Shown here piece after piece: positions 1,064 through 20,076 of a DNA stretch of 43,567 bases. The notes under the pieces were generated by a model. It was not told the origin of the DNA. It searched no databases and saw nothing but the letters and a program-made list of their open reading frames with translations. A program made the position numbers and the translations under genes. Source of the DNA: Pseudodesulfovibrio pelocollis (lineage in GTDB: Bacteria; Desulfobacterota; Desulfovibrionia; Desulfovibrionales; Desulfovibrionaceae); the NCBI RefSeq assembly GCF_030282845.1, contig NZ_JASTWE010000033.1, forward strand, positions 1 through 43,567, in the 5' to 3' direction. Position 1 is the first letter of the stretch; each line of letters starts with the position of its first letter.

Positions 1064-2917
1064 GTGAAGCTTGTACGCGTGAGACTTAGAAATTTCAGAT
1101 GCTACAAAGAGGAAACAACGATTAAGTTGGGCAAGCTCTCAATGATCGTTGGGCGAAATGACGCTGGGAAGTCGACAATATTTGAGGCGTTGAATATTTT
1201 TTTTGGGGACGGGAAGATTGACCAAGATGATGCCAATAAGAGCGGAGACCCCACAGATGTCGCGATTGTCTGCGAGTTTGAGGATTTTCCAGAGCAGATA
1301 GTCATCGACAAAGACTACCCAACAAATCTCCAAAATGAGTTTCTTCTTAATAAAGAAGGCCGATTAGAGCTTCACCAAATTTGGGACTGCACGAAAAAGA
1401 CTCCCAAGGCTGCAATGTATGCAATGGCTAATCATCCATCTGCACAAAGAGTTGATGATCTGCTGGAGTTAAAGATAACAGACTTGAGAAGTCGTGCGAA
1501 AGAGCTTGGAGCGGATCTTTCTGATGTCGATCAAAAGGTGAGTTCACAACTCAGGGGAGCAATAAGGAGCACTGTTGACGACTTAGTCCTTTGTGACCGT
1601 TTGCTGCAATTGGACAAGGATTCCGGGAAAAAATTATGGGAACAACTCAAGCTTTCATTGCCAACTTTTGCACTTTTTAAGGCGGACCGCTCCAGTACTG
1701 ACACTGATCCCGAAGCTCAAGACCCCATGAACGCAGCAATGAAAGAGGCTTTCAAGGGATTGGAACCAAAGCTGAATGCCTTAGTTGATCAAGTTAAAAA
1801 TGAAGTCCAATCTACGGCGGACAAGACTGTAGAGAAACTCCGTGAGATGCATCCAGAGCTTGCAGGTGAACTCAAGGCACGTTTCACTGAGCCGAATTGG
1901 AGCAAGGTTCTCAAAGTTAGCCTTACGGGCGAAGAAGACATCCCACTCAATAAGCGCGGGAGTGGTGTTCGGCGGCTCGTGCTGTTGAATTTCTTCCGCG
2001 CCAAGGCAGAGTCCAATGCTTATGACCGAGGTGAGGATGTTCCAGTAATCTATGCCATCGAAGAGCCAGAAACAAGTCAGCATCCAGCTAATCAAAAATT
2101 GCTTCTCAACGCGTTGTTGGAACTTTCGGAAAATCCAGGTCGACAGGTGTTGTTGACTTCACACAATCCAGTGCTTGCCAGGAGAATTCCTAGTAGCTGC
2201 ATACGCCATGTATGTGACAATGGGGGGTGTCGGTCTGTTGAAGGTGAAGGAGGTGAGAGGGAGGTTTTGAATAAGCTTGCTAAAGACCTCGGTGTTCTTC
2301 CTGACCATGACGTGAAGTTGTTTATTGGTGTCGAAGGTGTAAATGACATCCATTTTCTGCAGAGTATGTCAACAATGTTGATTGCCAATGGGGTTGATGT
2401 CCCTGACTTAGTTAAGCTGGACGAGAAAGGTATAATTATATTTATCCCTTGCGGTGGCACAAATTTGTCCCTTTGGGCACATCGTTTGGCCGGGCTCAAT
2501 CGTCCGGAGTTTCATCTTTTCGATGGGGATAAACAACAAAATGAGATAACGGCTCAAACTGTTTCTGAGCGAGGAGAGGGGTGCATTGGACTATGCACCA
2601 AGAAATATGAGATGGAGAATTATCTCCACGTTGATGCAATTGTTGCAGTAAAGTCGGAACTTGTTGGGCTTGTGGAATTTGGAGATCGTGATGATGTGCC
2701 GACAATAGTTGCTAAAGCAGTTCACTTTGTCTCAGGAGCTCAAACAGGATGGGCTGAACTGGAACCCAAAAAGCAGAAAGAGAAAGGTAGTCGGGCCAAG
2801 AAGTGGCTTAACACGGAAGCTGTACGGGCAATGACTCCTGAACTTCTTGAAGCACGTGATCCTGGTGGAGAAGTGATGGGGTGGTTTAATGCTATTGCGA
2901 AACATGTGAATGTTTAA
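1064..2917 (+). CDS. OLD-family ATPase with TOPRIM nuclease domain (putative phage defence)
   Basis: A 617-residue protein with an SMC/RecF-like ABC ATPase and a C-terminal TOPRIM domain. Visible motifs are Walker A GRNDAGKST (30-38), an ABC signature around RGSGVRR, Walker B ending IEEPE (332-336), the H-loop TSHNP, then the TOPRIM glutamate in GVEGVND (E424) and the acidic pair FDGD (D487, D489). A YEMENYL segment follows, as often seen in OLD/GajA-type nucleases. Start is GTG with AAGGGG at 1051-1056. OLD proteins are ATP-regulated nucleases, many of them antiphage. No UvrD/GajB helicase is adjacent, which fits a stand-alone class 1 OLD rather than Gabija. Base and codon use are far AT-richer than both flanks, which indicates horizontal acquisition. 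Confidence 0.88.
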   Translation: MKLVRVRLRNFRCYKEETTIKLGKLSMIVGRNDAGKSTIFEALNIFFGDGKIDQDDANKSGDPTDVAIVCEFEDFPEQIVIDKDYPTNLQNEFLLNKEGRLELHQIWDCTKKTPKAAMYAMANHPSAQRVDDLLELKITDLRSRAKELGADLSDVDQKVSSQLRGAIRSTVDDLVLCDRLLQLDKDSGKKLWEQLKLSLPTFALFKADRSSTDTDPEAQDPMNAAMKEAFKGLEPKLNALVDQVKNEVQSTADKTVEKLREMHPELAGELKARFTEPNWSKVLKVSLTGEEDIPLNKRGSGVRRLVLLNFFRAKAESNAYDRGEDVPVIYAIEEPETSQHPANQKLLLNALLELSENPGRQVLLTSHNPVLARRIPSSCIRHVCDNGGCRSVEGEGGEREVLNKLAKDLGVLPDHDVKLFIGVEGVNDIHFLQSMSTMLIANGVDVPDLVKLDEKGIIIFIPCGGTNLSLWAHRLAGLNRPEFHLFDGDKQQNEITAQTVSERGEGCIGLCTKKYEMENYLHVDAIVAVKSELVGLVEFGDRDDVPTIVAKAVHFVSGAQTGWAELEPKKQKEKGSRAKKWLNTEAVRAMTPELLEARDPGGEVMGWFNAIAKHVNV

Positions 2918-3012
2918 CGATTCAAGGCTACCACTCCAATAAATATCGGCATAGTCTACGTGGAATCTCATTGCCCTGTGCTGTAACATCGGACCTTCAT
3001 AGCCTGACCCAC

Positions 3013-3336
3013 TTACATCCCGTGGTCGCGCATGTGGGCGTCGAGGACGTTGTCCACGAGGACGCGCTTTTCGTCTATCCTGCCCGGGGTGATGGTGTAG
3101 CGGATGACCACCCATTCGAGGTTGTCGATGTATTCCACGTGGCCGTAGCCGCCCTCGGGCAGCAAGTCGCGCATCAGTTCCAGAAAATCGTCGATCATCA
3201 GGTACACGCCCTCGTGGTCCAGGCGCAGCACGTCGCCATCGTACTCCACCTGATCAAAGGGGAGGGCGTCCTTGATCCGTTCGAACAGCTCCGGCGAGAC
3301 GCGGTGAAAATCGCCGTAGACCCTGACATCATCCAT
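3013..3336 (-). CDS. small acidic protein of unknown function
   Basis: A 107-residue protein I do not recognise. It is rich in Asp/Glu and hydrophobic residues, with no signal peptide, membrane segment or Cys cluster. Its predicted alternation suggests a small alpha/beta domain, with a YLMIDDFLELM helix near the middle. The ATG at 3336 is chosen because AGGAAGGGA sits just upstream; an in-frame ATG 30 bases earlier lacks such a site. It follows the glycosyltransferase gene on the same strand with 38 bases between stop and start, so the two are probably co-transcribed. It is GC-rich like the chromosome, so the AT-rich insert ends just beyond its stop codon. Confidence 0.72.
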   Translation of the reverse strand: MDDVRVYGDFHRVSPELFERIKDALPFDQVEYDGDVLRLDHEGVYLMIDDFLELMRDLLPEGGYGHVEYIDNLEWVVIRYTITPGRIDEKRVLVDNVLDAHMRDHGM

Positions 3337-3374
3337 GATTCCCTTCCTGTCCTGCTGATGGTTCAAACCCCGAA

Positions 3375-5111
3375 CTAAGCATCACGGCCAAGCCGGTCAA
3401 CCAGGGCGGCATGCTTTGTTTCGAGGTCGTCCCACAGGAGCCGGGTGGTGTCGCGGGCCAGGGCGGCCAATTCCTCGTCCGAGTATTTGGTGTCGAGCTT
3501 GAGCTTGTTGCCCATGATGTGGCCGGTCTGGCGCAGGGTCTGCGCCCTGGCCAGGCTCGAATGCTGGACATGGCGCACGGCCAGGGTTCCGGCATACAGG
3601 GCGGGCATTCTGGCCAGGGCCGAGCGCATGTCGCGGTCCAGGTCGTCGAACTGTGAGGGTGTGTAGCGCAGGTCGAAACCGCCCGCCTTGGCTATGGCGG
3701 CCATGGACACCAGATGACAGCAGCCCGAGACAGACAGGCAGGGCCGGACATAGGTGAACAGCCCGGTGTCCGGCGACCCGGCGCAGTTGTCAAAGACCGC
3801 CACCCGGTTGGGCAGCGCGCCCGGCTCCGGGGCCTTGGGCGGCCTGGGGAAGAGATTGTAGTCCGCCGATTGCTGCCCGTGGGGCGGCGTGGCCGAGGTG
3901 ATGCGGCAGCCCACGGCCCCGATGCGGTCCGCGCCGCCATGCTCCCGCGCCGCACCCAGCAGCCGGGTCAGCCAGTCGGGCGGCAGGACCACGTCGTCGT
4001 CCAGAAAGGCGGCCCAGGCGCAGCGGCGCACCTCGGGCAGGGAGAGCAGCCAGTTGCGCGCTGCCGGAGCGCCCACATTGACCGGCAGGGTGGTCACTTG
4101 CAGCCCGGCGCGACCGTTTTCTGGACCAAAGAGCCCGCGCATCCGCTCAAGCACCTGGGGTGTGTGGTCCGTAGACCCGTTGTCCAGGACGAACACGCCC
4201 GCCCGGCCCAGGTCGCTGGCGGCCAGGCTCTCCAGGGTCGCGGCCAGCAGGTCCGCCTTGTTCCACGAATAGAGGAGCACGGCCACGGAGGCGGTTTCCC
4301 CGTCCGTCGTCTTCGCTGGCGGCGGGGCGTACAGGTCGTGCAGCTTGAGGGTCAGGTTGACGTGCCAGGGCATGGCCTGCCAGAGCATGGCCAAACCGTC
4401 CCGGCCTCTTTCGATTTCTCCCAGACGCAGCAGCAGTTCGCCGCCTGCGTAGGCGCGCCAGAATCCCCACAGGGCGGGGTCCAGCCCGGCGACCAGGGGC
4501 AGCGCCTCGTCCGGCGGCCGGGTGTGAAAGGCCAGCTCGGCCGCGAGCCGTGCCTTGAGGGGCAGGGAGGGCGCGTCCCAGGGGATCATGTCCAGGGCGG
4601 CCCGGGCCAGTTCGGGCCGGTTCAGAAAGAGCAGATCCTGCCAGCAGTGGCGCAGCCAGGCGGGCCAGCGCAGCGGGTCGCGCAGGGTCAGGGTCAGGAA
4701 ATGCAGGGTCAGATCGTGGTCGTCGCCCCTGACCAGGGCGTGCCAGGTGGCGGCCGCCTCGGCGTCGGCCTGCTCGGGAGGCGGCGTATCGGCCAGCCGG
4801 GTCAGGAGAGCGGTCAGCCCCGGGTGTCCGGCCAGGGCGTCGGGAGGTATGGCCGCTGCCAGCGGGGCCGAGAGGGGATGCGCCTGCGCGCCCCACAGGC
4901 CCATGGCCCGGGCCGTGTCGCGGCAACCGAGGTCTTCCGCGCCCAGGGCGTTCAGGCCGCGCAGCAGCCCGCCCAGGACATCGGGCGTGCCCATGCCCAG
5001 GTGCCAGCCCGAGAAGCGCTCCCTGAAGGCGGGCAGGATTCCGGGCCACGCGGACGGGGGCAGGGCGGATTTGTCGAGGCGCAGGGGGGCGGGGATTTCG
5101 GGCGTGTCCAT
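3375..5111 (-). CDS. two-part protein with C-terminal family 2 glycosyltransferase domain (paralog 1)
   Basis: 578 residues. The first ~270 are an Ala/Leu-rich helical region resembling TPR-type solenoids. A GT-A fold follows, starting at the YSWNK strand near residue 274. It has the nucleotide-binding LDNGSTD motif, the NVGAPAARNWLL segment and a DDD metal-binding motif in FLDDDVVLPPDW near residue 370. Family 2 enzymes transfer sugars from nucleotide-sugar donors, here presumably in the cytoplasm since no membrane segment is visible. Start ATG 5111 is chosen over upstream ATGs because the family-like sequence begins there; the ribosome-binding site is weak. It is divergent from paralog 2 across a 104-base spacer. 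The acceptor is unknown. Confidence 0.85.
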   Translation of the reverse strand: MDTPEIPAPLRLDKSALPPSAWPGILPAFRERFSGWHLGMGTPDVLGGLLRGLNALGAEDLGCRDTARAMGLWGAQAHPLSAPLAAAIPPDALAGHPGLTALLTRLADTPPPEQADAEAAATWHALVRGDDHDLTLHFLTLTLRDPLRWPAWLRHCWQDLLFLNRPELARAALDMIPWDAPSLPLKARLAAELAFHTRPPDEALPLVAGLDPALWGFWRAYAGGELLLRLGEIERGRDGLAMLWQAMPWHVNLTLKLHDLYAPPPAKTTDGETASVAVLLYSWNKADLLAATLESLAASDLGRAGVFVLDNGSTDHTPQVLERMRGLFGPENGRAGLQVTTLPVNVGAPAARNWLLSLPEVRRCAWAAFLDDDVVLPPDWLTRLLGAAREHGGADRIGAVGCRITSATPPHGQQSADYNLFPRPPKAPEPGALPNRVAVFDNCAGSPDTGLFTYVRPCLSVSGCCHLVSMAAIAKAGGFDLRYTPSQFDDLDRDMRSALARMPALYAGTLAVRHVQHSSLARAQTLRQTGHIMGNKLKLDTKYSDEELAALARDTTRLLWDDLETKHAALVDRLGRDA

Positions 5112-15795: not shown

Positions 15796-18093
15796 TCACA
15801 TCCGAAACACCCTCGGCGCGCCCGCCGTGTCCTCCAGGCGGAATCCGGCCTCGGCGATCATGTCGCGCAGGGCGTCGGAGGCGGCGAAGTCGCGGGTTTC
15901 GCGGGCCTTCTGGCGGTCGGCCAGCATGCCTTGCACTTCCAGGGGCAGCTCGGAGAGGGTGAGCGGCATCTGGGTGTGGTCGAGAATGCCCAGGATGGAA
16001 TCCACGGCCAGCAGTTCCTCGAGGCAGGTGGCGGCCTCGGCCCCGGTCATGGTCGCGGCCGCTGCCCAGGCATTGACCTGTTTGACGAAGCGGAAGAGCA
16101 CGGGCCAGAAACGGTGCAGGGCGAGGTCCTCGCTCATGGCCGTCTTGAATCCGGCGCGCAGGTCAAAGGCGGCCTGGCTGACCTCGCTGGCCACGGCCTC
16201 GTCCCTGTCGGCGCGGCCGGCCATGAGGGCGGCGGCCGTCTCCTGCACACGCCGCCAGTTGCGCGCCCACATGGCGAGGTTCTCGGCGCTGGCGCACAGG
16301 GGCTTGCGGCAGGAGGACGAGAGCAGCCAGAACCGGGCCGCCCGGTAGCCGCCGAGCTTTTCGGCCACGGTCACCAGGGTCTCGTCGGCGCATTCCGTGG
16401 CCTGATGGTTGAGCAGCCACGCCTGCAATTCGCGCCCGGCCGCAGACCAGATGGCCCGGAGATTTTCCAGATGGGGGAAGCGATGCTTTTCGCTGCCGAT
16501 CATCACGTCGATGCGGGGCAGACTGGTCAGGGCCGTGGCCGCGTGCTGCAGGAACCAGGAGGGGCGCACATTGCCCCATTCGGTCTCCAGCACCTCGCCG
16601 CGCTTGAGGTCGAGCAGGGTGGCCCGCTTGAGCAGCGTGAAATCGAGCGGGTTGTCCTTGACGTAGGCGTCGAGGTCCACGGTGCGCCCGCCCGAGACCT
16701 TGTCCATGTCCATGGCCCCGATCTCGCCGTAGCGCTTGTCGCGAAAGACGTCGAAATAGACCGAGCGCAGCTTTTCGTAGGCCAGCCCCTTGCCGAGCAG
16801 CTTGCGGCAGAGTTCAAGGGCCTTGTCCTCGCCGCCCGACGAGAGGGGGAAGGCCACGCCCGGGTCGCCGTCTGCGGCCATTCCCACGCCCATGTCGCGG
16901 GCGCGGTCCACGATCATGGCCCGGCGGTGCAGGGCAAAGGCGGCCCGGTTGGCGTCCGTGTGCCGGGCTGCGGCCAGGGTGCGGTCGTCCATGTCGGTCA
17001 GGCCCACGGCGGCCTGGACATCCACCCCGCTTGATCGCAGATGCCGGGCCAGCACGTCGAGGACCACCACCCGCCGCCAGGCGTCGAGTCCGTCCGGGTT
17101 GTCCAGGCTCGGGCCCATGGAGTAGAGGCCCAGGCCCGTCTGGGTCCGCAGGGGCTTGGTCGCGCCCGAGGCCATGTCGAAGAGGGTGATGCCGCTGCCC
17201 GCCTGCTGCCGGTAGAGATGGGTGCTCAGGTAGCGCTCGCCCGAGTCCGGGAAGATGACCACGATGAGGCCTGATTCGAGCCGCTCGGCCAGCTGGATGG
17301 CCCCGCCCAGGGCCGCGCCCGAGCTCATGCCCGCGAAGATGCCCTCGGCCCGCGCCAGCCTGCGGCAGTTTTCGAAGGCGGTCTCGTCGTCCACGTGCAG
17401 GACCTCGTCGAGCCAGGTCTTGTCGTAGATGCCGGGGGGGTAGGATTCGAGCATGTTCTTCAGGCCCTGGATCTTGTGACCTGCGTAGGGCTCCACGGCG
17501 GCCACATGGACCCGGCCCATTTCGTGCAGCCGCTTGGCGATGCCCATGGCCGTGCCCGAGGTGCCCAGCGTCATGACGCAGTGGGTCACCGCGCCGCCGG
17601 TCTGCTCCCAGATTTCCAGACCCGTGCCGGTGTAGTGGGCGTCGATGGAGGCGGGGTTGTTGAACTGGTCCATGAGCACATAGGTATCAGGCTCTTCGCG
17701 GGCGTAGCGGTAGGCGCGCTCGATGGCCCCGTCGGTGGAGAGGTGGCCGGGGGTCAGCTCCAGCTCGGCTCCGTAGGCGGCCATGATCATCTTGCGCTCC
17801 TCGCTGGCCGTCTCGGGCATGAGCAGCTTGATGCGGTATCCCTTGATGGCCGCCACCATGGCCAGCCCCACGCCGGTGTTGCCCGAGGTGGCCTCGATGA
17901 TGATCTTGTCCCGGGTCAGTTCGCCCGAGCGCTCGGCCGCCTCGATCATGGCCGCGGCCACGCGGTCCTTGACCGAACCGCCCGGATTCTGCGCCTCGAG
18001 TTTGGCCAAAATCTTGACGCTCGGGTTCGGGTTGAGATGGCGAATCTCCACCAGCGGGGTGTTCCCGATGAGCGAAAGCAGATCGTTGTTCAT
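15796..18093 (-). CDS. cysteine synthase fused to a catalytically degenerate cysteinyl-tRNA synthetase
   Basis: 765 residues. Residues 1-300 are a fold-type II PLP enzyme: catalytic Lys 42 in GGSVKDRV, substrate loop TSGNTG (69-74), phosphate-binding GTSGT (177-181) and PDSGERY near 282-288. It should make cysteine from O-acetylserine and sulfide. Residues 301-765 follow cysteinyl-tRNA synthetase end to end: GLTDMDDR (364-371) for FTDIDDK, NPLDF (481-485), RFPHLEN (538-544) and a RDFAASDALRD C-terminal block (734-744). The HIGH and KMSKS motifs are gone. Three of the four zinc ligands are replaced: the first Cys lies in LYSMGP, the second aligns with H517 and the Glu with L545. Aminoacylation is therefore unlikely; the domain may sense cysteine or tRNA, or scaffold. 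ATG 18093 is chosen because CysK homology starts there, with AGGGA upstream. Confidence 0.93.
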   Translation of the reverse strand: MNNDLLSLIGNTPLVEIRHLNPNPSVKILAKLEAQNPGGSVKDRVAAAMIEAAERSGELTRDKIIIEATSGNTGVGLAMVAAIKGYRIKLLMPETASEERKMIMAAYGAELELTPGHLSTDGAIERAYRYAREEPDTYVLMDQFNNPASIDAHYTGTGLEIWEQTGGAVTHCVMTLGTSGTAMGIAKRLHEMGRVHVAAVEPYAGHKIQGLKNMLESYPPGIYDKTWLDEVLHVDDETAFENCRRLARAEGIFAGMSSGAALGGAIQLAERLESGLIVVIFPDSGERYLSTHLYRQQAGSGITLFDMASGATKPLRTQTGLGLYSMGPSLDNPDGLDAWRRVVVLDVLARHLRSSGVDVQAAVGLTDMDDRTLAAARHTDANRAAFALHRRAMIVDRARDMGVGMAADGDPGVAFPLSSGGEDKALELCRKLLGKGLAYEKLRSVYFDVFRDKRYGEIGAMDMDKVSGGRTVDLDAYVKDNPLDFTLLKRATLLDLKRGEVLETEWGNVRPSWFLQHAATALTSLPRIDVMIGSEKHRFPHLENLRAIWSAAGRELQAWLLNHQATECADETLVTVAEKLGGYRAARFWLLSSSCRKPLCASAENLAMWARNWRRVQETAAALMAGRADRDEAVASEVSQAAFDLRAGFKTAMSEDLALHRFWPVLFRFVKQVNAWAAAATMTGAEAATCLEELLAVDSILGILDHTQMPLTLSELPLEVQGMLADRQKARETRDFAASDALRDMIAEAGFRLEDTAGAPRVFRM

Positions 18094-18169: not shown

Positions 18170-18185
18170 CTGGCACGCATCATGC
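18170..18185 (+). promoter_or_regulatory. sigma-54 (-24/-12) promoter
   Basis: CTGGCACG at 18170-18177, four bases, then ATGCA at 18182-18186 fits the -24/-12 consensus with the obligatory 12-base offset between the GG and GC elements; the only deviation is ATGC for TTGC. It lies in the intergenic region about 110 bases before the DUF115 gene, whose motility-linked role fits sigma-54 control of flagellar genes. Confidence 0.75.
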
Positions 18186-18294: not shown

Positions 18295-20076
18295 ATGACC
18301 GCATATCCCTTTCTCAAGGACAACATCGAGTATTTGCAGGCCAAGGGGCATCCCGTCTTCCAGTGGCTTTCCACCCGCCCCTTCGGCGAGGAGGCGCTGC
18401 TCTCCAACCTGTTCATCAACGAATACGGCATCCACGACTGGCGCATGGAAAACGGCAAGGGCATGTTCGAGGCCCTGCCGCCCGTGGGGCTTTATTCCTC
18501 GTGGACCAATGGCGACAAGCCCGAGACCTCGGCCACCTTCATCGTGGGCTGCAACCTGGGCTACGGCGTCAACCACGTGCTCAAGAACACGCCCGACAGC
18601 CACAAGGTCATGCTGCTGGAACCCCGGCCCGAAATGCTCCTGGCCTGCCTGGGCCAGACCGACTACCGTCCCTTCTTCGAGGCCAGGAAGTTCCACATCC
18701 TGGTCCCGGACGAGCGCTACATCCACGAGGTGATTAAGAACCTCGACCTCCAGTTCGTCTACGGCCAGATTCATCTCAAGGGCGATCTGCCCAGCCAGCA
18801 GCTGGGGCCGGAGTATGCCCGCTGGGCCACCTGGATGCGCCACAAGCTGGAGAACTTCTCGCTGGAGCTTTCGACCCTGCGCTTTCGCCAGGACGTCATG
18901 GTCGCCAACGAGGTGCACAATTTCAGACGGGCCATGGCCGAGGGTTCCATCCGGGGCCTTGAGGGCCGGGCGGCCGGGCTGGGCGGCGTCATCCTCGGCG
19001 CCGGGCCGAGCCTTGAGGACGCGGCCCAGAGCCTGCGCGACAATCCGGGCCACGCCCTGTACATCTGCGCCCTGCAGACCGTGCCCACGCTCCAGGCCCT
19101 GGGCATCAGGCCCCATTTCTGCGTGGCCATTGACTACGACAAGTCCATGCTCAAACTCTTCGACCGGCTTGACCCCGACTTTGTGCAGGGCATCCCGCTC
19201 ATCTATTCCACCAAGGTCCTGCCCGAGGCCGTGGCCCGCTACGCCGGGCCGACCCTGCCCCTGTGGACCGTGGGCGGCATGGGTACTTACGTCATGAAGG
19301 AGCATGATCTGGTCATCGATGCGGGCGGCAACGTCTCGGTGACCATCTCGCGCCTGCTGCGCTGGATGGGGGTGAGCCACATGGTGCTCATCGGCCAGGA
19401 TTACGCCTGGCTCAAGGACCGCTCCCACGCGGCCGGGCACCACAACCACACCACCAGCACGACCCGCCGCAGCTACCACCAGACCACCCGCAACATGGAA
19501 GGCGAGGAGATCCTGACCACGGTCCAGTACATGACCGCCAAGCGCGAGCTGGAGGCCGATCTGAAGGAATCCCCGGTGCCGGTCTTCAACGTCTACGGCG
19601 GCGGCGTGCCCATCGAGGGAACCCGCGTGGTGGACCTGGAAACCGCCTACGCCGAGGGGCTGTTCGCCTCTGTCCCGGGCGGGGTGGAGCGGTTCATGGC
19701 CGAGCTTGCGGCCAGCCGGGGCACCATGACCCCGGTGCGCTTCGAGCCGCGCGGACCCGCCTGGTCCACCTCGCTGCGCAACATCGAGAAGCATTTGGGC
19801 AAGCTCTTTCGGAACCTTGCGGCCAACCAGACCGAGGTGCACGAGGCCATGGGCCGGGTCGAGATATTCCTGAACCAGGATCCGCTGTACACCCCGTATC
19901 TCTATAATGAACTGGTCGATCTGGCCGGGCTGACCCGGGCCAGGAAGCACTACGCGCAGCGCGATTTTCCGGAATTCCGGCGCATCGTGCGCTGCGTGCT
20001 CAAGAAGGTCCGCGAGATCGACCGGCTGGTCTGCATGGCCGAGTCCCGCCCGGACCAGGGGCAGGCCGTGGCCTGA
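18295..20076 (+). CDS. DUF115/Maf-type motility-associated glycosyltransferase
   Basis: 593 residues, cytoplasmic. It has the MAF/DUF115 (MptE-like) Rossmann core with the GAGPSLEDA nucleotide-sugar loop (about residues 236-244). The core is followed by IYSTK, GGNVSVTISRLLRWMG and GQDYAW segments typical of the family. Members modify flagellin with pseudaminic or related nonulosonic acids, or act as motility accessory factors. The ATG follows AAAAGGA. A sigma-54 promoter lies upstream at 18170-18185. No flagellin or nonulosonate gene is in the window, so the flagellar role is inferred. A GC-rich stem follows the stop codon. Confidence 0.88.
   Translation: MTAYPFLKDNIEYLQAKGHPVFQWLSTRPFGEEALLSNLFINEYGIHDWRMENGKGMFEALPPVGLYSSWTNGDKPETSATFIVGCNLGYGVNHVLKNTPDSHKVMLLEPRPEMLLACLGQTDYRPFFEARKFHILVPDERYIHEVIKNLDLQFVYGQIHLKGDLPSQQLGPEYARWATWMRHKLENFSLELSTLRFRQDVMVANEVHNFRRAMAEGSIRGLEGRAAGLGGVILGAGPSLEDAAQSLRDNPGHALYICALQTVPTLQALGIRPHFCVAIDYDKSMLKLFDRLDPDFVQGIPLIYSTKVLPEAVARYAGPTLPLWTVGGMGTYVMKEHDLVIDAGGNVSVTISRLLRWMGVSHMVLIGQDYAWLKDRSHAAGHHNHTTSTTRRSYHQTTRNMEGEEILTTVQYMTAKRELEADLKESPVPVFNVYGGGVPIEGTRVVDLETAYAEGLFASVPGGVERFMAELAASRGTMTPVRFEPRGPAWSTSLRNIEKHLGKLFRNLAANQTEVHEAMGRVEIFLNQDPLYTPYLYNELVDLAGLTRARKHYAQRDFPEFRRIVRCVLKKVREIDRLVCMAESRPDQGQAVA

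Follow-up and report, generated by a model that had tools for sequence, protein, structure and literature searches.

The window, a 43,567-nucleotide stretch of Pseudodesulfovibrio pelocollis DNA, carries a gene in which a cysteine synthase is joined to a second half derived from cysteinyl-tRNA synthetase (CysRS), and the catalytic signatures of the synthetase are missing from this half. The product is best read as a CysM-type cysteine synthase with a fused regulatory module that would not aminoacylate. A HisZ-like module recognising tRNA-Cys and controlling cysteine synthesis is the best explanation for the second half, put forward tentatively on the strength of sequence comparison. Such a module would most likely recognise tRNA-Cys through its retained anticodon-binding domain, and the segment spanning residues 436-516 may relay the state of tRNA-Cys to the active site of the synthase; cysteine output would then track the supply or charging of tRNA-Cys. 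The logic would be that of HisZ acting on HisG, but within a single chain and with tRNA recognition kept. We infer enzyme activity, tRNA binding, coupling to the active site, the direction of the effect and the regulation of cysteine synthesis alike. That the synthase is directly gated by its own tRNA-Cys reader, without a riboswitch, kinase or transcription factor, is possible but doubtful as judged from the sequences.

Architecture of the fusion and its CysRS motifs

The features of the gene and its surroundings are given in Table 1. An in-frame ATG also lies upstream at 18183 and would yield 795 amino acids, but the starts of close relatives agree with 18093. In the 765-residue protein, Pfam recognises PALP at residues 7-283 (E 9.6e-69) and tRNA-synt_1e at residues 318-554 (E 2.6e-22), and a CysS_C match at residues 715-755 reaches 20.1 bits, under its cut-off of 23. 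The NCBIfam model cysS (TIGR00435) aligns over residues 314-759, nearly to the CysRS C-terminus, and is missed at 132.3 bits against a cut-off of 340. The best solved-structure match of the CysRS-like half in a single-sequence search is E. coli CysRS (1li5/1u0b; 6.5e-29, residues 22-457 of the half). The half follows E. coli CysRS (1li5, 1li7, 1u0b) in the same order to its C-terminus, but the window protein is without HIGH, KMSKS and three zinc ligands. The initial annotation had described a PLP cysteine synthase followed by a CysRS-like part to the C-terminus, and the single 765-residue frame, with the Pfam, NCBIfam and E. coli CysRS alignments, bears this out. Its concern that a sequencing error might have joined two genes is ruled out: the fusion is not an assembly join, because several single-contig genomes show it.

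Table 1. Coordinates of the fusion gene, its parts and its divergent neighbour in the window
Feature	Position	Strand	Description
Fusion gene	15796..18093	minus	765 codons plus stop, one unbroken frame, ATG at 18093
CysM-like PLP cysteine synthase	17197..18093	minus	residues 1-299
CysRS-derived half	15799..17196	minus	residues 300-765, full length including anticodon-binding domain
GLDA at the HIGH position	17080..17091	minus	residues 335-338; followed by W339 R340 R341
Most constrained segment of the CysRS-like half	16546..16788	minus	residues 436-516, YEKLRSVYFDV...YVKDNPLDFTLLKRA...WGNVRPSWFLQ
Anticodon-binding domain	15799..15957	minus	residues 713-765; by alignment to E. coli CysRS
MptE-like gene	18295-20073	plus	divergent from and upstream of the fusion gene

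Motifs were compared across 21 true CysRS, E. coli CysRS 1li5/1u0b and 157 distinct full-length fusions. The latter comprise the window protein and 156 sequences from 178 loci (L007-L185 minus L136), the loci outside the 156 being duplicates, cut by contig ends or frame-broken; the 157 sequences are kin, and counts over them are not independent.

The cysteine-synthase half appears intact. The best PDB matches of the whole protein are CysM / O-acetylserine sulfhydrylase B (2jc3, 2bhs; 5e-77), which cover the N-terminal half and differ from the fusion in being entries of about 300 residues without a CysRS half. The cysteine synthase subfamily model TIGR01136 (cysKM) is passed at 350.3 bits (cut-off 344.15), whereas the cysteine synthase B equivalog TIGR01138 (cysM) is missed at 345.0 bits (cut-off 394.2); cysK (TIGR01139) scores 310.5. 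The catalytic residues K42, S70, N72, T73, Q143, T178, K212 and S257 are each present in 157 of 157 fusions. The mean pairwise identity of PALP is 0.63 over 78 non-redundant fusions, and its dN/dS is 0-0.11 in nine same-genus pairs.

In the CysRS-like half of the window protein, HIGH has become G335-L-D-A338 and the KMSKS stretch is a gap in the alignment. We take the zinc ligands of E. coli CysRS to be C28, C209, H234 and E238; the corresponding positions are M326, H517, H541 and L545, with three of four ligands replaced and the histidine retained. For this protein, alignment to true CysRS thus upholds the initial annotation, which had reported HIGH and KMSKS as missing and three of four zinc ligands as replaced. 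The description "lost catalytic and zinc motifs" does not extend to all relatives, since all four zinc ligands are found in 35 of the 157 fusions and a KMSKS-like K[MIL]S[KR]S in 14. Both zinc cysteines are gone in 108, and the replacements vary by lineage (MHHL, PMHL, PLHF and others). An intact HIGH (HxGH) occurs in none of the 157 fusions against 21 of 21 true CysRS, the first histidine being kept in 33 fusions and the second in four. The backbone motifs TDMDD, NPLDF, FPHLEN and DFAASD, already noted as conserved, are all found in the window protein. Residues specific to the fusions, relative to true CysRS and E. coli CysRS, are R341, K441, R490, L496 and K497; R341 is present in 157 of 157 fusions, where the 21 true CysRS have S, A or C.

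The other intact cysS, whose presence in the genome had been left to be checked, was found: a separate CysRS (G000:C38) has HIGH, KMSKS and the four zinc ligands all complete. It is very unlikely that the window protein aminoacylates tRNA. The earlier proposal of selection for something other than aminoacylation agrees, at the level of sequence, with the absence of HIGH from all 157 fusions, the purifying selection in nine pairs and the separate CysRS.

Distribution and family history

Recurrence in Desulfovibrionales had been suspected in the initial annotation; the fusion does recur there, and it spreads across the phylum. Among 60 relatives, it is present in 34 of 35 same-genus genomes (split over two contigs in G019; none in G029, which is 82% complete) and in 21 of the 24 other genomes of the order, 20 of them full and one cut by a contig end, with none in G042, G043 and G054. 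Of 297 genomes sampled from the phylum, 115 have it by a reading of the match list, and these represent 43 of 95 family codes; in that list a break in score and in frame length separates the fusions from true CysRS. Of the 115, 114 have long frames and E <= 8.9e-80; the remaining one, G073, has a broken frame and an E of 6.1e-67. Fifty were read as sequence, 49 with both halves in one frame, and the other 65 were assigned by score and frame length.

A contig scan for the fusion returned 518 stretches, 500 of which were confirmed. The titles of the best 80 of the 500 name Desulfovibrionales, Desulfobacterales and Syntrophaceae kin, together with five 'Proteobacteria bacterium' and four delta-proteobacterium entries. 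The scan under-counts, because its peptide is present in only 20 of 48 phylum-scan fusions. When 25 chosen genomes were searched with the PALP half, all eight fusion-type PALPs (59-75% identity) were part of long frames. Neither the PALP nor the CysRS-like half of the fusion is present in the seven g15-genus genomes; as far as these data show, the two halves therefore occur or are missing together. Plasmid records matching the CysRS-like half number 603 of 72,556, all with less than 60% identity; among the 15 matches listed (at most 29.5% identity), nine are annotated as cysS and six are without annotation there.

Several individual genomes depart from the common arrangement. G042, which is 95% complete, has no match to the cysteine-synthase half, and G305 has a weak match only (6.5e-5). 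At L182 (G073:C1), the frame breaks near window-protein residue 567 and the C-terminal part continues in another frame; this locus was not counted as full length. At L220 (G027:C8; also L054), a second fusion copy has its halves in different overlapping frames (2297-4606 and 2314-3822). G027 also has an intact fusion, and the second copy could reflect a genuine gene split, a frameshift or contamination (estimated at 3%).

A quick tree was built from 78 non-redundant fusion halves (of the 157) and 14 of the 21 true CysRS, with the root set by the latter. The CysRS-like halves of the fusions group on a single branch, separate from true CysRS (SH-aLRT 100), and a long stem of 1.26 changes per column leads to a clade of 38 rows that includes the window protein and its order. 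On this tree the complete set of zinc ligands changes five times or more, four of these changes being forced by well-supported branches, where a change is any departure from CCHE and the counts alone give no direction. Members such as those at L149-L153, L174 and L179 keep Cys/Cys/His/Glu together with HLGL, HLGI or a similar motif, and KMSRS in all but a few. In the simplest order, HIGH would have been lost at or near the root, and the zinc ligands and KMSKS later and repeatedly. If the CysRS-like half does read tRNA, the family would also retain intermediates on the way from synthetase to sensor. The graded states of zinc ligands, HIGH and KMSKS across relatives make the order of events open to experiment.

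Retained residues and the candidate functions

The CysRS-like half is under purifying selection (dN/dS 0-0.29 in nine same-genus pairs), and as a whole it evolves faster than PALP in seven of the nine. Segment 436-516, which we take to be CP1, sits just before the second zinc-ligand position; its dN/dS is 0-0.041 in these pairs, and its mean pairwise identity is 0.60 over the 78 non-redundant fusions, close to the value for PALP, against 0.26-0.37 in the other CysRS-like segments. The matching segment in true CysRS has an identity of 0.68, and the conservation of 436-516 may therefore be partly inherited. Within it, E440, K441, Y477, R490, L496 and K497 are found in most of the 157 fusions and are absent from true CysRS. 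For positions whose residue is shared by 95% or more of true CysRS, the mean fraction retained in the 108 zinc-lost fusions is 0.32 in the HIGH region, 0.30 in the zinc/KMSKS region, 0.36 in the helical region, 0.57 in residues 61-180 and 0.79 in the C-terminal domain (8 positions). W482 (the analysis's own numbering), conserved in true CysRS, is retained by 6% of these fusions.

The anticodon domain holds the other spared region. In E. coli CysRS, according to the available text of PMC12684709, which cites Hauenstein 2004, R427, D436 and W432 contact G34 of tRNA-Cys directly and R423 does so via water. By direct alignment, E. coli R423, R427, W432 and D436 correspond to R727, R731, F736 and D740 of the window protein, and R439 and D451 to R743 and D755. 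The equivalents of R423 and D436 are present in 157 of 157 fusions; that of R427 is R in 142, K in 12 and Q in three (R/K in 154 of 157), and that of W432 is aromatic in all 157 (F 104, W 34, Y 19). R439 and D451, to which we presume a role in E. coli CysRS, have equivalents in 157 and 156 of the 157, respectively. The G34-contact residues are invariant or nearly so in true CysRS as well, and they may be kept for folding, as conserved charged residues can be structural. Their enrichment is modest: of the 53 columns, the 10 with the highest conservation include three of the four contacts (P 0.018, computed on 45 non-redundant zinc-lost sequences). The domain overall evolves fast, with a mean pairwise identity of 0.35 and a dN/dS of 0.34-0.49 in three of the eight pairs having a value, all three in the window's nearest group.

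Given these two spared regions, segment 436-516 and the G34 contacts, a module reading tRNA-Cys fits best. The initial annotation had proposed sensing of cysteine or of tRNA, without choosing; in this lineage the sequences point more to tRNA than to cysteine bound through zinc, because 108 of the 157 fusions have lost both zinc cysteines and the G34 contacts persist; zinc-dependent sensing of cysteine is unlikely for the window's lineage. A changed small-molecule pocket is the main rival, because several residues of the old pocket also persist: G28, R41, D68, D70, D71, W204, H233 and N236 (own numbering), which we take to lie around the old cysteine pocket, are near-invariant in the 108 zinc-lost fusions (0.93-1.00). 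The half would then be an amino-acid sensor that regulates the synthase, its old pocket binding O-acetylserine, cysteine in a zinc-independent way or some other amino acid, with the anticodon domain being only structural. With four zinc ligands in 35 fusions, an early fusion may indeed have bound cysteine, and the rapid evolution of the anticodon domain outside its key residues points the same way; the variety of zinc-ligand replacements, however, is unlike one maintained ligand site, and the kept G34 contacts are left unexplained, so that we consider such a sensor rather unlikely. The fast divergence of most of the half outside 436-516 would also suit a scaffold that senses nothing, whether a domain for oligomerisation or stability or a docking platform handing cysteine to the true CysRS, and segment 436-516 could be its interface with the PALP domain. 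A scaffold would have no need for anticodon-contact residues, yet these are kept where, as an average of the remaining regions, about 60% of the CysRS-conserved positions are lost in zinc-lost fusions, and we hold it to be distinctly unlikely.

Chemistry on the tRNA itself, in which the protein makes or loads cysteine on tRNA-Cys like SepRS/SepCysS or basal members still activate cysteine, is very improbable. In its favour are the zinc ligands, HLGL or HLGI and KMSRS kept by some members, for example those at L149-L153, L174 and L179. Against it, no fusion has an intact HIGH, a true CysRS is encoded elsewhere in the genome, and free cysteine is apparently made in the ordinary way, to judge by a cysE-like match next to a cysK-like gene; PALP-fold enzymes are not known to us to act on tRNA. 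It is scarcely credible that the half is a dispensable relic in drift. The repeated changes of the zinc set would be compatible with drift, but the dN/dS values of the half and of segment 436-516, the full length of 157 distinct copies and the occurrence of long frames across 43 of the 95 family codes all speak against it.

Related systems and genomic setting

The nearest functional analogue of the fusion, if it reads tRNA-Cys as proposed, is HisZ with HisG, HisZ being a class II protein and a separate subunit. In the available text of PMC9437257, HisZ is a HisRS paralog without adenylation activity that regulates HisG, an enzyme making the same amino acid. The CysRS-like half resembles it as a non-catalytic synthetase paralog by motif, and would resemble it further in regulating its own enzyme; it differs in being class I, fused and in possession of its anticodon-binding domain. 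A catalytically silent synthetase regulating the synthesis of its own amino acid is thus already known, HisZ being the classic case. The fusion would, if the proposal is true, add a second, independent case, class I, in one chain, phylum-wide and with tRNA-reading residues kept, suggesting a repeatable evolutionary route from synthetase to regulator. It would also tie amino-acid synthesis directly, and in a way that can be tested, to the status of tRNA in sulfate reducers; these bacteria produce large amounts of sulfide and must control cysteine.

Two other CysRS relatives differ more. MshC, the cysteine:GlcN-Ins ligase, is described in the available text of PMC9437257 as a CysRS paralog outside translation. 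It is an active ligase, the alignment of its two PDB sequences to the half is confined to profile positions 3-305, and the MshC model TIGR03447 is missed by the fusion protein at 48.1 bits against a cut-off of 485.1. To our knowledge, no MshC is fused to PALP. The same text reports that CysRS* of Desulfobacterales has no anticodon-binding domain and charges SelC* (PMC9437257). It is likewise a second CysRS-like protein in the same phylum, but the fusion half keeps the anticodon-binding domain to the C-terminus of E. coli CysRS and is without HIGH. DVU0663, a putative cysteine synthase, is up in biofilm according to the available text of PMC3431258, and may or may not be the fusion gene. No description of a PALP-CysRS fusion was found in the available text of open-licence PMC literature, although one may still be in print, and fusion-related terms are absent from PMC10102598.

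By position, the fusion gene stands alone. Downstream and on the opposite strand lies an aldehyde-dehydrogenase-family gene, presumably proA. The window has no Rfam match at gathering thresholds and no tRNA gene, and therefore no known T-box or riboswitch by that test. The genome also carries a second, cysK-like cysteine synthase relative (G000:C1:150832-151749; L208, G000:C1:149500-153500), with a serine-acetyltransferase match about 0.4 kb downstream (G000:C1:152133-152621). The cysE match, at 172 bits, is under the curated cut-off of 210.65, as are those in all 31 genomes of that search. Together they suggest an apparently ordinary free-cysteine route beside the fusion. A missing serine acetyltransferase, considered as a hint of O-phosphoserine use, finds no support, given the cysE match adjoining the cysK-like gene.

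Across 120 loci, no neighbour gene is common to the whole fusion family. A homolog of the MptE-like gene occurs in 30 of them, and in all 20 that could be placed it lies upstream and opposite within 600 bases. An uncharacterised family was found at 17 of the 120 loci (for example L128:6304-7399, L174:986-2054 and L152:5311-6286, with 14 others); for three of its members, Pfam returned nothing above cut-off. It adjoins the fusion on the same strand, with a gap of -149 to 38 bases, at 16 of the 17 loci (one was not placed), and could be an operon partner in some lineages of the phylum.
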